This document shows positions 52,202 through 56,648 of a DNA stretch of 64,000 bases, piece by piece. The translations under genes were made by a program, and so were the position numbers. Under the pieces are notes generated by a model that searched no databases, had not been told where the DNA came from, and saw only the letters and a list, made by a program, of their open reading frames with translations. Location of the stretch: positions 62,001 through 126,000 of the forward strand of contig JAHFPV010000012.1 in NCBI GenBank assembly GCA_023266575.1. The letters run 5' to 3'. This stretch comes from Sphingobium sp. Lineage in GTDB: Bacteria > Pseudomonadota > Alphaproteobacteria > Sphingomonadales > Sphingomonadaceae. Each line of letters begins with the position of its first letter. The first letter of the stretch is position 1.

Positions 52202-53224
52202 TTACCCCGCGCTTAGCCCATGTTTCTTCATGCAATGGCGCAGTTGGTCATAGGTCAGGCCCAGCCCCTTGGCGGTGGCGCGCTGGTTGTAGCGGTGGCG
52301 GTCGAGCGCGGCGCGGATGATCGCGGCTTCGTGCGCGTCGACTGCGGCTTTCAGGTCGCTGATGGTTTCGGTGGCGAGCGAGGGAGCAGGGGCGCTTGTG
52401 GGCGCGCTATCGGAAGGCGCGGCGGCGCTTGGCATCAGCGGTCTGGGTTTCCAGGGGGAGGCGAAAGGGTCGAAGGTCAGGCGGTCGATCGGCTTGCCCG
52501 GCTCGTCCCAGCGATAGACGGCCCGTTCGACCACGTTGCGCAGTTCGCGGACATTGCCGGGCCAGCTATGGGCCTCCAGCTGCGCGGCGCAGACGGGGGA
52601 GAAGCCGGGCCATTGCGGCCAGTTGAGTTCGGCCGCCATGCGCCGCCCGAAATGATCCGCCAGCACCGGAATATCGCCCTCCCGCGCGCGCAAGGGCGGC
52701 AGGGTGATGACCTCGAAACTCAGGCGATCGAGCAGGTCGGGGCGGAAGCGTCCGGCTTCAGCGGCGGCGGGCAGGTCGTCATTGGTCGCGGCCACGATCC
52801 GTACGTCCACCCGCAGCGGCTTCGACGCGCCGATGCGGGTGACTTCGCCATATTCGACCACGCGCAGCAGCCGTTCCTGCGCCGCCATCGATAGCGTACC
52901 CAGTTCATCGAGGAACAATGTGCCGCCATCGGCCTCCTCGAACCGGCCGGGGCGGGCGCGGTTCGCGCCGGTAAAGGCGCCCTGTTCATGGCCGAACAGT
53001 TCGGCCTCTATGAGGGTTTCGGGCAGGGCCGCGCAGTTCATGACGATCAGCGGCTCGCCCCAGCGCGGGGAGAGGTGATGGAGCCGCTCGGCGATCAGCT
53101 CCTTGCCGGTCCCGCGCTCACCGATCACCAGCACCGGGCGGTTGAGTTCGGCGGCGCGCCCGGCCAGCTCGACCGCGTCGAGAAAGGCAAAGGACTGACC
53201 GACAAATTGGGTATTTTTCTCCAT
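52202..53224 (-). CDS. pspF: Phage shock operon activator PspF (sigma-54 dependent)
   Basis: A 340-residue bacterial enhancer-binding protein. It begins directly with the AAA+ domain, with no receiver domain, as PspF does: Walker A GERGTGKE near residue 35, GAFTGA loop (HEQGAFTGANRA) near 86, Walker B GTLFLDEL, and WPGNVRELRN. A Pro/Ala/Ser-rich linker leads to a C-terminal FIS-type HTH (RYNQRATAKGLGLTYDQLRHCMK). PspA normally binds and silences it. It is divergent from the psp genes and activates their sigma-54 promoter at 53326. Confidence 0.96.
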   Translation of the reverse strand: MEKNTQFVGQSFAFLDAVELAGRAAELNRPVLVIGERGTGKELIAERLHHLSPRWGEPLIVMNCAALPETLIEAELFGHEQGAFTGANRARPGRFEEADGGTLFLDELGTLSMAAQERLLRVVEYGEVTRIGASKPLRVDVRIVAATNDDLPAAAEAGRFRPDLLDRLSFEVITLPPLRAREGDIPVLADHFGRRMAAELNWPQWPGFSPVCAAQLEAHSWPGNVRELRNVVERAVYRWDEPGKPIDRLTFDPFASPWKPRPLMPSAAAPSDSAPTSAPAPSLATETISDLKAAVDAHEAAIIRAALDRHRYNQRATAKGLGLTYDQLRHCMKKHGLSAG

Positions 53225-53236
53225 ACCCCAACTTAT

Positions 53237-53294
53237 GGTGAAATTTCCCACCTTTCGGCAAGAGATATTCTGGCGCGGGCTTGGAAAATCCCGC
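53237..53294 (+). promoter_or_regulatory. Possible PspF enhancer sites
   Basis: Two inverted repeats, GGTGAAATTTCCCACC (53237-53252) and GCGGG...CCCGC (53275-53294), lie 32-90 bases upstream of the sigma-54 promoter, where enhancer-binding proteins bind. The first lies close to the pspF start, so it may also give autocontrol. Inferred from position and symmetry only. Confidence 0.35.
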
Positions 53295-53325
53295 AAAAAT
53301 GGCGCAAATCGGCGCTTTTCCAAAA

Positions 53326-53342
53326 TTGGCACGGCCCCTGCA
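53326..53342 (+). promoter_or_regulatory. Sigma-54 promoter of the psp operon
   Basis: TTGGCACGGCCCCTGCA has the invariant GG (53328-29) and GC (53340-41) exactly 10 bases apart, an almost ideal match to the -24/-12 consensus. It points at the psp genes and faces the pspF gene, which encodes a sigma-54 activator. Confidence 0.9.
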
Positions 53343-53410
53343 AAGCTTAGGGCAATCCGCATAGACACAAGCGGAACGTCACGAAGGCCAAGGTTCAGGG
53401 AGTTATCATC

Positions 53411-53584
53411 ATGGAAGAGAACAACAACAGCGTTCGCGAAATCGGCCAGCTGATGTCGGTTGCTTTGGCTGCCCTGCTGTTCGGATCGACTCTGATCCTG
53501 TCAGCAGTCGGCCCGGCCCGCGCCAGCGAAGCCCCGATGCTTGCCAGTCAGACGACCCCTATGGCCCTGCGTTATCTGGCCTGA
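53411..53584 (+). CDS. 57-residue membrane protein leading the psp operon
   Basis: A short gene with AGGGAG nine bases before its ATG. The product has a polar start (MEENNNSVREIGQLM), one hydrophobic helix (VALAALLFGSTLILSAVG) and a short Ala/Ser/Thr-rich tail, so it could be a single-pass inner-membrane protein or a cleaved exported peptide (ARASEA). It is the first gene after the sigma-54 promoter and 41 bases before pspA. I know no named family. Its leader (GGGAG...ATCATG) is like those of the other psp genes. Confidence 0.75.
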   Translation: MEENNNSVREIGQLMSVALAALLFGSTLILSAVGPARASEAPMLASQTTPMALRYLA

Positions 53585-53625: not shown

Positions 53626-54294
53626 ATGGGTATTTTCTCCCGCACCCGCGACATCATCGCCGCCAATGTCACCGACTTGCTCGACAAGGCCGAGGACCCG
53701 GCGAAGATGATCCGCATGATCATCCTCGAAATGGAGGAAACCCTGGTCGAGGTGCGCGCGTCCGCTGCCCGCACCATCGCCGACCAGAAGGAAATGCGGC
53801 GTCACATCGCCAAGCTGACCGCTTTGCAGGACAGCTGGACCGAAAAGGCGCAGCTGGCTTTGTCGAAGGACCGCGAGGACCTGGCCAAGGCGGCTCTGGT
53901 CGAGCGCCAGAAGGCGACCGACATGGCCGAGCATCTGTCCCACGAGATCGAGACGCTCGACGATGCGTTGAAAGCGTCGGAAGAGGATATTTCCAAGCTG
54001 CAGGGCAAGCTGCGCGAAGCCCGCGCCCGCCAGAACAGCCTGGTCACCCGGATGCAGAGCGCGGAAAATCGCCTGCGGGTGCGCGAAGCCTATGCCGGCG
54101 AGAAGGTGAACGAGGCGTTTGCGCGCTTCGACATGCTGGAAAGCCGGGTCGATATGGCCGAAGGTCGCGCCGACGCGATGGCGCTGGGCGGCACGCCCAA
54201 GACGCTGGAGGAAGAGATTGCCGAGCTGAAGTCCGCCGACAAGGTGGATGCTGATCTCGCCGCTCTCAAGGCCAGCATGAATAAGGGAGCCTGA
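53626..54294 (+). CDS. pspA: Phage shock protein PspA
   Basis: A 222-residue ESCRT-III-like protein, almost fully helical. The start MGIFSRTRDIIAANVTDLLDKAEDP is an amphipathic helix, then long coiled-coil helices (residues 25-185) with the family motif EDPAKMIRMIILEMEETL. It binds and stabilises stressed inner membrane and, when free, inhibits PspF. RBS AAGGAG is 10 bases upstream. It is the main effector of the locus. Confidence 0.97.
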   Translation: MGIFSRTRDIIAANVTDLLDKAEDPAKMIRMIILEMEETLVEVRASAARTIADQKEMRRHIAKLTALQDSWTEKAQLALSKDREDLAKAALVERQKATDMAEHLSHEIETLDDALKASEEDISKLQGKLREARARQNSLVTRMQSAENRLRVREAYAGEKVNEAFARFDMLESRVDMAEGRADAMALGGTPKTLEEEIAELKSADKVDADLAALKASMNKGA

Positions 54295-54298
54295 CATC

Positions 54299-54580
54299 AT
54301 GGAGGACATATTCCTGCCCATCATGATCTGCGGCATGTTGTTCATCGGTATGCCCTGGCTGATCTTCCACTATGTCACCAAATGGAAGCAGGCGCCCAAG
54401 ATCACCGACGAGGATGAGAAGCTGCTGGATGAACTCCACCTTCTCGCCCGCCGTCTGGAAGAAAGGCTGGTGACGGTCGAACGGATCGTCGCCGCCGACA
54501 ACCCCGATTTCCGTCCGCGCCGCCCGGCACCCGATGCCGACTTGAGCGATGACGATTACAGCTTCGACCGGAGGAACTGA
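54299..54580 (+). CDS. pspB: Phage shock protein PspB
   Basis: A 93-residue inner-membrane protein: one N-terminal helix (FLPIMICGMLFIGMPWLIF), a basic turn (HYVTKWKQ), then a coiled coil (DEKLLDELHLLARRLEERLVTVERIVAAD) and an acidic tail. PspB and PspC sense membrane stress and draw PspA off PspF. It lies 4 bases after pspA. Its second half resembles the four small proteins downstream. Confidence 0.92.
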   Translation: MEDIFLPIMICGMLFIGMPWLIFHYVTKWKQAPKITDEDEKLLDELHLLARRLEERLVTVERIVAADNPDFRPRRPAPDADLSDDDYSFDRRN

Positions 54581-54581
54581 G

Positions 54582-54962
54582 ATGACCGCCCGCCGCACCA
54601 AATTCTACCTCAACAAGGCCAATGGCAAATGGTCGGGCGTGTGCGCAGGCATCGCCGACTATAGCGGGATCGACGTCGTCTGGGTCCGTGTCGGCGCGGT
54701 GCTGATCACCCTGATGGGGGCCTTCCCCTGGACGCTGATCGCCTATTTCGCCGCCGTCTATTTCGCCGATGACAAGCCCAAGGGGCTGTATTCGGACCGG
54801 GATGACGAGAAATTCTGGCAGGGGGTGCGGACCAACCCGACCCGCTCCACCCGCGACGTCCGGTCCAAATTCCGCGACATCGACCGCCGCCTGGCCGACA
54901 TCGAAATCTACTATACCAGCCGCAACACGCGCCTGGCGGATGAAATCGACAGGCTACGCTGA
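54582..54962 (+). CDS. pspC: Phage shock protein PspC
   Basis: A 126-residue inner-membrane sensor. The PspC domain is clear: KFYLNKANGKWSGVCAGIADYSGIDVVWVRVGAVL, then a second hydrophobic stretch (TLIAYFAAVYFA) and a C-terminal charged helix (FRDIDRRLADIEIYY) that ends in a pattern (RLADEIDRLR) also seen at the ends of the next proteins. GAGG precedes the ATG by 8 bases. Confidence 0.94.
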   Translation: MTARRTKFYLNKANGKWSGVCAGIADYSGIDVVWVRVGAVLITLMGAFPWTLIAYFAAVYFADDKPKGLYSDRDDEKFWQGVRTNPTRSTRDVRSKFRDIDRRLADIEIYYTSRNTRLADEIDRLR

Positions 54963-55013: not shown

Positions 55014-55304
55014 ATGAATTTCGGTGGACCTTTCTTCGTCCTGGCCATCATCGCCATGTCGACTTTGGGCTGGATGTTCACCACCTGGGTCCGTGCTCGT
55101 CACGGATACCCGGTGGAAAATGAATGGACCGGCACCGTTGATCGAACGGACGGCGACGCTGGTCGAAAAATCGACCTGCTGTCCGGTGAAAACGAAAAGC
55201 TGGTGGGCCGCATCAGCCGCCTGGAGGAGCGCATCGCCGTGCTGGAACGGATCGCCACCGATCCTGCCGTCCGCACTGCGCGCGCCATAGAGGAACTGCG
55301 CTGA
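55014..55304 (+). CDS. PspB-like membrane/coiled-coil protein 1
   Basis: A 96-residue protein: N-terminal helix (FFVLAIIAMSTLGWMFTTW), short basic stretch (VRARHGYPVENEW), then a coiled coil with RISRLEERIAVLERIATDP and a final RAIEELR. The helix-coil plan and the LEERxxxxERI core match PspB. The residues HGYPVENEW recur as NGYPLENSW in the next protein, which points to duplication. It is in the same operon; AGGGAG precedes the start. No individual function is known to me. Confidence 0.85.
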   Translation: MNFGGPFFVLAIIAMSTLGWMFTTWVRARHGYPVENEWTGTVDRTDGDAGRKIDLLSGENEKLVGRISRLEERIAVLERIATDPAVRTARAIEELR

Positions 55305-55328
55305 GCGCGGTGCAAGGGAGTAGAGATC

Positions 55329-55640
55329 ATGTTTCCATTTGCAGATTTCGCGCCGGTCGTCTTTGCCGTCGGATCGCTGGGGATCATCGGCTGGGTTGTT
55401 ACCACCTGGCTGCGCGTCAAAAATGGCTATCCGCTGGAAAATAGCTGGGGCAAACCGGTCTATCCGCAGAAGAATGAGGAAATGGTCGAGCGGGTGAAGC
55501 TGCTCAGCCAGGAAAATGCCCAGCTGCGCGCCGAGATCGGATCAATGAAGGACCGGCTGGCCGTGGTCGAGCGGATCGTCACCGACGAAAGCCACCAGCT
55601 TAATCGCGAAATCGAACGGCTGCGCAGCCCGGCCAACTGA
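55329..55640 (+). CDS. PspB-like membrane/coiled-coil protein 2
   Basis: A 103-residue protein: N-terminal helix (VVFAVGSLGIIGWVVTTWL), RVKNGYPLENSW, a polar linker and a coiled coil (EMVERVKLLSQENAQLRAEIGSMKDR, then LAVVERIVTDES) ending IERLR. It is the closest relative of the preceding protein. The gap before it (TGAGCGCGG...GGGAG...ATCATG) resembles the gaps before the next two genes. Confidence 0.85.
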   Translation: MFPFADFAPVVFAVGSLGIIGWVVTTWLRVKNGYPLENSWGKPVYPQKNEEMVERVKLLSQENAQLRAEIGSMKDRLAVVERIVTDESHQLNREIERLRSPAN

Positions 55641-55666
55641 GCGCGCGGCAAAAGGGAGAAAGCATC

Positions 55667-55918
55667 ATGAACCCGTTTGAAATGGTCGTCGCCATCATTG
55701 CGATCACCGCCATCGCCAGCGTCCTGCGTGCCAAATATGGTGTCGTGCGGCGCGACAAGGGCGAAGAATTTATCGCACGCGGGCCGGACCCGGAAGCAGA
55801 GCGGCTGCGCGCCGAGGTGAAAGCGCTGAAAGACCGCGTCGCGGTGCTGGAGCGCCTGGCCACCGACGGCAGCAGCGCGCTGGAGCGCGAGTTTGAGAAA
55901 TTGCGGGACCGCGATTGA
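55667..55918 (+). CDS. PspB-like membrane/coiled-coil protein 3
   Basis: An 83-residue protein: N-terminal helix (MVVAIIAITAIASVL), a basic turn (RAKYGVVRRDKG), and a coiled coil with KALKDRVAVLERLATDGS that ends EFEKLRDRD. It lacks the GYPxEN segment but keeps the core [DE]R[VIL]AV[LV]ER[LI]xTD. Start preceded by AAAGGGAG. Same operon. Confidence 0.84.
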   Translation: MNPFEMVVAIIAITAIASVLRAKYGVVRRDKGEEFIARGPDPEAERLRAEVKALKDRVAVLERLATDGSSALEREFEKLRDRD

Positions 55919-55946
55919 ACGCGGCCCATTGGGCAGGGAGGCTATC

Positions 55947-56180
55947 ATGCAGGACCCCACTCTCTATCTGACCATCGCGCTGGCCGGGCTGGCTGGCCTC
56001 TCCATCGTCACAATGGCCACGTTACGCGGCTGGACCGGCTGGCTGGAGCTGAAGCGCGCGGAACTTGGCCATCGCAGCGAAGCGAGCGCGCCACCATCGG
56101 CCGCCGCGCGGATCGAGGTCGCGGACTTGAAGGAACGCATCCGCAAGCTGGAAGCGATCGCGGCGGGCGTGGATTTGTAA
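55947..56180 (+). CDS. PspB-like membrane/coiled-coil protein 4
   Basis: A 77-residue protein: N-terminal helix (LYLTIALAGLAGLSIVTMA), a W-rich juxtamembrane part (LRGWTGWLELK) and a short helix DLKERIRKLEAIAAG. It is the most diverged of the four but keeps the K[DE]R...LE.IA core. The ATG at 55947 has AGGGAGG seven bases upstream. It is the last gene before sufE. Confidence 0.8.
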   Translation: MQDPTLYLTIALAGLAGLSIVTMATLRGWTGWLELKRAELGHRSEASAPPSAAARIEVADLKERIRKLEAIAAGVDL

Positions 56181-56231: not shown

Positions 56232-56648
56232 ATGACCGATCAGAGCGCCCTAGCCGACATTCACGATGAATATGAATTTCTCGACGCGGACGATCGCTAT
56301 CGCCTGCTGATCGATCTGGGCCGGGCGCTGGAACCCATGCCCGATGCGCTCAAGACGGATGCGACGCTGGTGCGCGGCTGTTCGGCGGCGGTGTGGGTCT
56401 ATCCCACCGTGCTGGATGACGGACGGCTGCATTTCCTGGCCGACAGCAATGCCGCGATCACCAAGGGGATCATCGCGCTGGTGCTGCTGACCGTGCAGGA
56501 CAAAAGCCCCGTGGCGATCGGCGCGGCGGACATAGAGGGGGCGCTGGCCCCGTTCGACCTCAAAAATCAGCTGAGTTCCAACCGGACCCAGGGCATCCCC
56601 AACATGATCGCCCTGATCCGCGATACGGCGGCGCGCTACAGCGCCTGA
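56232..56648 (+). CDS. sufE: Cysteine desulfurase activator SufE
   Basis: A 138-residue cytoplasmic sulfur-transfer protein that accepts persulfide from SufS for Fe-S cluster assembly. The sulfur-accepting Cys is in LVRGCSAAVWV near residue 50, followed by the FLADSNAAITKGIIALVL block. The fold and length are typical. It is 51 bases from the psp genes and may have its own promoter; no suf genes adjoin. Confidence 0.95.
   Translation: MTDQSALADIHDEYEFLDADDRYRLLIDLGRALEPMPDALKTDATLVRGCSAAVWVYPTVLDDGRLHFLADSNAAITKGIIALVLLTVQDKSPVAIGAADIEGALAPFDLKNQLSSNRTQGIPNMIALIRDTAARYSA

Follow-up and report, generated by a model that had tools for sequence, protein, structure and literature searches.

An old, family-wide array of small membrane proteins behind pspABC in Sphingobium: putative alternative partners of PspA and PspC

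What are the four small genes that follow pspABC in a Sphingobium genome, how are they related to PspB, and what might they do for the psp system? The locus lies in a stretch of 64,000 nucleotides (the window). A sequence-only reading had described four tandem genes of 77-103 codons (P1 to P4, with 96, 103, 83 and 77 codons in our analysis) there, ascribed them to repeated local duplication of a PspB ancestor and proposed that they supply PspA and PspC with alternative membrane partners. Our analysis confirmed the observation, down to lengths and coordinates, and supported the interpretation in part. P1 to P4 represent, in Sphingobium, an old array that extends across the family and for which paralogy, tail homology, an operon-like layout and absence together with PspA were computed. 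That they are putative alternative membrane partners for PspA and PspC is our leading idea.

The array is probably barely described beyond one clause on 'PspB duplicates' in psp operons, found in the main text of section 17 of a 2024 survey (PMC11237479), with AOL22920.1 as the example; the same survey mentions a PspC with a divergent C-terminal PspB. Like the array, the 'PspB duplicates' are extra PspB-like genes in a psp operon and may well be the same thing; unlike the analysis below, the main-text clause gives no count, lineage or tail analysis. The main text of PMC9239133 contains no word beginning with Sphingo. Among the literature matches listed for psp, sphingomonads and paralogues, no title dealt with an array behind pspC.

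The genes run in the order pspF (minus strand), sigma-54 type box, 57-codon ORF, pspA, pspB, pspC, P1 to P4 and a gene that we take to be sufE-like (Table 1). The putative promoter box follows what we take to be the -24/-12 consensus and was the sole sigma-54 type match in the 64-kb window, where 0.22 were expected and 20 of 100 shuffles held one. When the pattern was loosened, 52 of 77 relatives had a similar box in the 400 bp that precede pspA, compared with 0/77 after shuffling. The 57-codon ORF had no convincing family match in Pfam and NCBIfam; it had tblastn relatives in Sphingobium-type loci, and hydrophobic-stretch ORFs, a weak criterion, occupied its position in 67/77 relatives. The gaps between the small genes had been called alike, which holds for the three between P1 and P4 (24, 26 and 28 bases) but not for the 51 bases between pspC and P1, where GGGAG is present and the GCGCGG run is absent. 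By gene order the four genes are laid out as members of a psp regulon, behind pspC, with short gaps and a common upstream sigma-54 box. P2 is identical to P2 of Sphingobium sp. AS12 and S. terrigena, and searches of the 3.6-Mb source genome with P2 and with an array profile (18 of 64 candidates scored) gave no match beyond the psp locus.

Table 1. Features of the psp locus, in window positions
Feature	Position	Strand	Evidence or remark
pspF, sigma-54 activator	52202..53368	-	TIGR02974, 470.8 bits (cut-off 443.55); called ORF start possibly too far upstream
Sigma-54 type -24/-12 promoter-like box, TGGCACGGCCCCTGC	53327..53341	+	Pattern match, putative
Hydrophobic, signal-like ORF of 57 codons, after the promoter-like box and before pspA	53411..53584	+	ORF call
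pspA	53626..54294	+	TIGR02977, 280.2 bits (cut-off 242.95)
pspB	54299..54580	+	PF06667, 88 bits; TIGR02976, 76.3 bits; both above cut-off
pspC	54582..54962	+	TIGR02978, 124.8 bits (cut-off 104)
P1, array protein, 96 aa: single membrane helix, GYP turn, coiled-coil tail	55014..55304	+	
P2, array protein, 103 aa; tail ERIVTD...LNREIERLR	55329..55640	+	
P3, array protein, 83 aa	55667..55918	+	
P4, array protein, 77 aa, last-slot type; C-terminal end ADLKERIRKLEAIAAGVDL	55947..56180	+	
sufE-like gene (presumed label), downstream bound of array	56232..56648	+	Used as landmark only

By sequence, P1, P2 and P3 are clear paralogues. BLASTP linked P1 to P2 (E 2.4e-22), P2 to P3 (1.4e-11) and P1 to P3 (7e-7); P4 gave E 0.04-0.25 against P1 and P3, and no match to P2 among those listed. 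Profiles built from orthologues strengthened the first three pairs (P1-P2 E 1.2e-34, P1-P3 2.4e-24, P2-P3 2.4e-19) and extended to P4 (P3-P4 2.2e-8, P1-P4 7e-5, P2-P4 1e-3). All six pair scores exceeded the best of 60 decoys per pair, made by shuffling columns in blocks of seven, and P4 is for this reason a probable member of the family, its most divergent one; the P3-P4 score was 46.2 against a decoy maximum of 23.7, and the P2-P4 score exceeded its decoys narrowly (23.8 against 21.1). Whether seeded with P1, P2, P3 or P4, iterated searches arrived at one common set of 846-849 ORFs among the 1191 called, a result in which drift is possible and some loci overlap. The proposed tandem paralogy was thus borne out, pairwise for P1 to P3 and through profiles for P4. 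The common core was also found in the array proteins, as was the HGYPVENEW / NGYPLENSW motif shared by P1 and P2. R76 and E81 (P2 numbering) were invariant in 52 diverse members and, by inspection, the tails are conserved while the membrane helices differ strongly between slots.

A predicted helix lay near the N-terminus in 825 of 849 members, with none called in the other 24. Flanking charge could be scored in 385 of 401 relatives (not in the other 16); K/R residues were more numerous on the C-terminal side of the helix in 384, and in one the two sides were equal. Prediction thus supports the single N-terminal membrane helix, basic flank and coiled coil of the sequence-only reading. The array proteins are predicted to have the N-terminus outside and the C-terminus, with the coiled-coil tail, in the cytoplasm; given this topology, the tails would face cytoplasmic PspA. 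An AlphaFold2 model of P2 placed helices at residues 8-32 and 50-99 (mean pLDDT 73.9, pTM 0.33), and among solved structures the array profile matched nothing better than E 0.11.

The tail that the array proteins resemble forms the final ~40 residues of PspC. P2 matched this part of the PspC model (TIGR02978 positions 71-121) at 20.9 bits (E 2.6e-4), below cut-off, and none of P1 to P4 matched the PspC domain PF04024. P1, P2 and P4 had no match to the PspB models PF06667 and TIGR02976; P3 reached TIGR02976 at 17.7 bits (E 0.0033, positions 1-67), where 51.7 bits are needed. Models for PspD and PspG, which we take to be included in Pfam and NCBIfam, were not matched by P1 to P4 in these libraries up to E 10. 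Matches to general coiled-coil models (bZIP, JAKMIP) were weak and were taken as noise. Among the 52 diverse members, 12 matched TIGR02976 (best E 1.2e-6), four PF06667 (best 6.1e-5) and 14 TIGR02978 (best 1.7e-4) at E <= 0.01. The matches to the two PspB models should fall below the cut-offs, since 40.7 bits corresponded to E 2.2e-10 and 24 bits to 4.1e-5. With best values of this order, annotation by PspB and PspC models misses the array proteins.

In profile comparison, a PspB profile matched P1, P2 and P3 at E 2.8e-5, 1.5e-6 and 1.1e-4, and a PspC-tail profile matched them at 5.5e-7, 6.8e-9 and 2.3e-7, in each case above all 60 decoys; P1 also matched PspB directly by BLASTP (E 1.3e-4). 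The PspA profile, used as a coiled-coil control, gave E 0.02-0.15 against P1 to P4, and the PspB profile gave 0.028 against the PspC tail. The P4 profile reached E 0.03 with PspB and 0.01 with the PspC tail, neither above decoys; by profile, P1 to P3 carry a PspC-type tail and the P4 type does not. By end patterns defined in this analysis, 328 of 401 members ended in the PspC manner, as did 158 of 165 PspC tails and 1 of 195 PspB proteins; for the PspB-type end the corresponding counts were 0/401, 0/165 and 151/195. The P4 type accounts for 69 of the 401 members and has tails without the TD...EI..LR end. Tail profiles from outside the family scored the 401 array tails at a median of 9.4 bits for PspB (58 sequences, one of them the small PspB-like protein of locus L280) and 8.6 bits for PspC; scores of at least 15 bits were obtained for 81 and 104 array tails, respectively, compared with 0/401 shuffled tails. 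Conversely, true PspB and PspC proteins were among the array-profile matches of several loci.

In a FastTree tree of 235 tail cores (2 of 237 dropped, and the PspC tails of L328 and L329 left out), built from a short alignment of coiled coils whose fifty residues resolve history poorly, 61 of 64 PspB sequences and the window's PspB formed their own split (support 0.99), as did 57/57 PspC tails (0.72), and 106 array and P4-type members fell in one split (0.96). The array therefore sits outside the PspB split, yet by branch length all 90 sampled array members lay nearer to PspB than to PspC. On our reading, PspB, the PspC tail and the array tails are three branches of a single tail superfamily. 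Like PspB, the array proteins have one N-terminal membrane helix, a basic flank, a cytoplasmic coiled coil and an R[LI]xTxERI core in a psp operon; unlike PspB, P1 to P4 score below the curated cut-offs, and the members lack the PspB-type end and split off separately in the tree. With the PspC tail they share the pattern R[LI]xxxE...T[SD]...L..EI..L; PspC differs in its PF04024 domain, and the array proteins have a single, different membrane helix.

Of the descent from a PspB ancestor claimed in the sequence-only reading, kinship with PspB was supported, by the profile and BLASTP matches and by the tree distances; simple duplication was not, since P1 to P4 passed no PspB model, the PspB-type end was never found and the P2 profile matched the PspC tail at least as well. 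For the same reasons 'PspB duplicates' was rejected as a full account of P1 to P4; because the tree puts the array nearer PspB, it was retained as a possible origin, and descent from PspB and descent from the PspC tail both stand. With the tree nearer PspB and the tail-profile scores about equal, a PspA-docking role inherited from PspC is at most putative.

We examined the published PspC-PspA contact for its counterpart in the array. The C-terminal cytoplasmic domain of PspC is reported to bind PspA in the on state and free PspF (PMC5596341), and the leucine-zipper region of PspC is required for interaction with PspA (PMC3068692). In Yersinia, PspC changed at V125 no longer contacts PspA, and V105D in E. 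coli PspC abolishes PspC-dependent signalling by the authors' statement (both PMC6003685). In the 119-residue PspC of L309, position 105 holds the hydrophobic residue that directly precedes TS. Of the 394 members (of 401) that bore the pattern, 370 had A or V at the equivalent position; PspC tails mostly had Y (102/189) or V (57/189) there. The [IF] positions of PspA and PspC revealed no consistent covariation by eye.

The PspC tail matched the PspA profile at E 3.6e-4, which was unexpected. PspC tails (those of L328 and L329 left out) resembled a C-terminal segment of PspA, residues ~170-215. Of 16 comparisons between groups, 15 located the resemblance there (E 1.1e-5 to 0.03, the best being an alpha tail against gamma PspA), above 20/20 decoys in each comparison, with groups that are related and so not independent. 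The segment lies inside the part of PspA reported for self-association (PMC6003685), and the resemblance suggests that PspC may dock by imitating a contact between PspA molecules. Taken together, the array tails gave E 0.08-0.56 against this segment, not above decoys.

As to function, we consider it somewhat more probable than otherwise that the array encodes psp-regulon single-pass anchors that offer PspA, PspC or both an additional supply of docking helices of the PspB/PspC type. PspF would fire the sigma-54 promoter, and zero to nine anchors, depending on the genome, would be made together with PspA, PspB and PspC. Their tails may then engage PspA in the manner of the PspC tail, form pairs with the tails of PspB and PspC, or do both, and this could change the amount of PspA at the membrane and the setting of the PspA-PspF brake. 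Against this reading stand a psp genome that has no array (G856), the tree distances and balanced tail-profile scores, the P4-type tails, the Y that PspC tails mostly have at the V105 position, and the missing resemblance of the array tails to PspA. Zymomonas psp genes are reported to respond to ethanol and, by the authors' word, furfural; the text of the Zymomonas literature found gave no data on ZMO1066 or the array genes.

It is possible, if doubtful, that the proteins serve instead as extra PspB-type partners of PspC, whose tails mask the PspC tail or swap onto it and so set the threshold of the sensor, with PspA left uncontacted. PspB-like build and predicted topology, tree distances nearest to PspB, the PspB-P2 profile match (E 1.5e-6) and the 12/52 members matching TIGR02976 all favor such a role; against it, the PspB-type end is absent from all 401 members, 14/52 match the PspC model, and the operon retains a PspB proper.

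The Psp repertoire includes small proteins of effector type, PspG for instance. An unlikely alternative to docking anchors is that the array proteins are regulon effectors acting on lipids, proton leak or envelope proteins, binding no Psp regulator and using the tail to oligomerise only. Besides the precedent of PspG, the differences between helices from slot to slot beside conserved tails fit this account, as does a C-terminal peptide like DSGVPLNIxxKEKA that follows the tail in 17 of 401 members (14 loci, L114, L115, L120, L124 and L128 among them). However, the conserved PspB/PspC-type core with its invariant R and E in 52 members exceeds what oligomerisation would need. PspG itself is named in PMC9239133 and PMC3068692.

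We surveyed the array across genomes. The sampled family is probably Sphingomonadaceae, judged from named relatives of P2 (the best 80 of 383: Sphingobium, Sphingomonas, Sphingopyxis, Stakelama and others). A whole-genome profile search at E <= 1e-6 found an array match in 279 of 298 family genomes (265 of the 278 of good quality) and in 89 of 96 genera; three of the 279 (G871, G904, G963) are counted on a single weak match each (7.6e-7 to 1.1e-7), possibly to P4 or to PspC. Loci were read in 84 family genomes and 36 genomes of other families, among 184 with a PspC match. Behind pspC, the 84 family loci hold 401 called members, one to eight per locus with a mode of five; the total is a slight under-count, because the gene caller found one and two members in the AT-rich loci L147 and L167, where the profile found five each. 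Locus L338 has nine members and genome G856 none, so that the overall range is zero to nine. In G856 the sufE-like gene follows pspA-B-C directly, and the array is therefore not essential to the psp system.

The slots are old and ordered, and have been retained. Of 317 intergenic gaps in the 84 loci, 302 were <= 60 bp, with a one-base overlap as the median; a P4-type signature occupied the last array gene of 59/84 loci, and a P2-type motif was present in 56/84. The best match lay in another genome for 400 of 401 members, which, as several sampled genomes share a genus, shows an age above strain level and not a date. Recent local duplication was rejected on this count, and with it the 'repeated local duplication' of the sequence-only reading as a recent event, matches being present in 279/298 family genomes. 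dN/dS for P1 to P4 was 0.03-0.46, compared with 0.04-0.08 for PspA and 0.20-0.37 for PspB; of the four genomes compared, three were Sphingobium and the fourth was a Sphingomonadaceae MAG. P1 to P4 are real genes under purifying selection.

A tandem expansion that is close to neutral and does little by itself would sit easily with a copy number of zero to nine and with the intact psp genes of the array-less G856. We regard such an expansion as very unlikely given the dN/dS values, the best matches in other genomes, the matches in 89 of 96 genera and the absence of the array together with PspA.

That last association was seen in the 19 family genomes without an array match. No PspA was found in sixteen of them, two have contig-cut psp loci (G887, G1013), and one is G856. 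The absence is weaker for five of the 16, as these genomes are under 90% complete; among them, G1023 matched PspC but not PspA. Conversely, PspA was present in 15/15 array-matching genomes tested, picked among the weakest matches and the largest arrays, and in 14/14 genomes outside the family with strong array-profile matches (12 of other classes and two of family f153). These data support a tie to the psp system. Since most relatives keep the array and those without it mostly lack PspA, the array is probably a real extra layer of the psp alarm.

More distant, solitary relatives were identified in an order of another class of the phylum, probably gammaproteobacterial, in which 32 of 99 genomes matched the array profile at E <= 1e-6; the match in G811 was the PspC tail itself and was dropped. 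PspA was present in 30 of the 31 genomes left (two below the family cut-off) compared with 28 of 68 others (Fisher P = 2.7e-8, with relatives non-independent) and, counted by family, in 8/8 with a match compared with 9/19 without (P = 0.011). There were one or two such relatives per genome at E <= 1e-6. Those of L331-L334 lie far from psp genes; that of L306 (G774), a 73-aa gene, stands directly behind pspC in the psp operon. Like array proteins, they match the array profile (45-64 bits) and have a membrane helix and an LE[KRA]I[IV]TD tail; unlike them, they are solitary, and the six in the tree fall outside the array split, which makes them relatives and not shown members. Wide occurrence without psp genes had been named as evidence against the proposal; it was found in part, at L331-L334, yet nearly all the matching genomes have PspA.

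Eight of the 36 loci from other families of the order had one match each, seven in family f8 and one, a PspB-like protein, in f5. A short tail-less PspC-like ORF lies directly upstream of the single-pass tail protein in the f8 loci L198, L207, L218 and L232; no such ORF was present in the gene calls upstream in L208, L230 and L233. In the former four loci the PspC head and tail are on separate genes, and an ORF that by eye we take to encode an L,D-transpeptidase follows the tail protein. Within ~1.5 kb behind pspC, one of 17 PspC loci from other families of the class had such genes, L280, with one PspC-type and one PspB-type tail, and L329 has a further such gene. In a class sample of 289 genomes, matches at E <= 1e-9 came from the array-bearing family (4/4) and one f153 genome only. 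Single-pass proteins with PspC-type and PspB-type tails were also seen behind pspC in L330 (G463), as in L280 (G368), of another family of the class; in L246, an overlapping read of L330, the protein with the PspB-type tail is above the Pfam PspB cut-off. In L302 (G688), of another class, two tandem PspB genes precede pspC, a true PspB duplication unlike the array.

It is most improbable that P1 to P4 are unrelated small membrane proteins alike only through coiled-coil resemblance: none passes a curated cut-off, general coiled-coil models match weakly and the non-expected pair of PspC tail and PspA reached E 3.6e-4, but the P1-P3 profile scores lie far above decoys and above those of PspA against P1-P4, and all four seeds converge on the same 846-849 of 1191 ORFs (drift and locus overlap being possible), which for P1-P3 largely refutes this explanation.

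PspA is a bacterial ESCRT-III relative, and the psp field has yet to settle what directs it to its sites of action. If the array proteins are docking anchors, a further step, rather unlikely and offered tentatively, is that they form a tunable docking rack for PspA, in which different membrane helices, each with its own preference for lipids or partners, joined to a PspA-binding tail of the PspB/PspC kind would give damage-specific recruitment by different anchors. Diverged as they are, with up to nine per locus, the anchors are a natural panel, present in harmless bacteria of soil and water, for asking which part of the tail recruits PspA and how the helix relates to the type of stress.

Two further observations concern the psp genes of single genomes. 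Contig C3 of G996 carries two PspA genes on opposite strands ~40 kb apart (~3.58 and 3.62 Mb), with identical-score array matches near each, so that the psp locus seems to be duplicated. Elsewhere in the source genome, L291 encodes a second, tail-less PspC of ~60 codons (1480-1665; G000:C21:19731-19916), preceded by a ~34-codon hydrophobic ORF that by eye is like the 57-codon ORF upstream of pspA.
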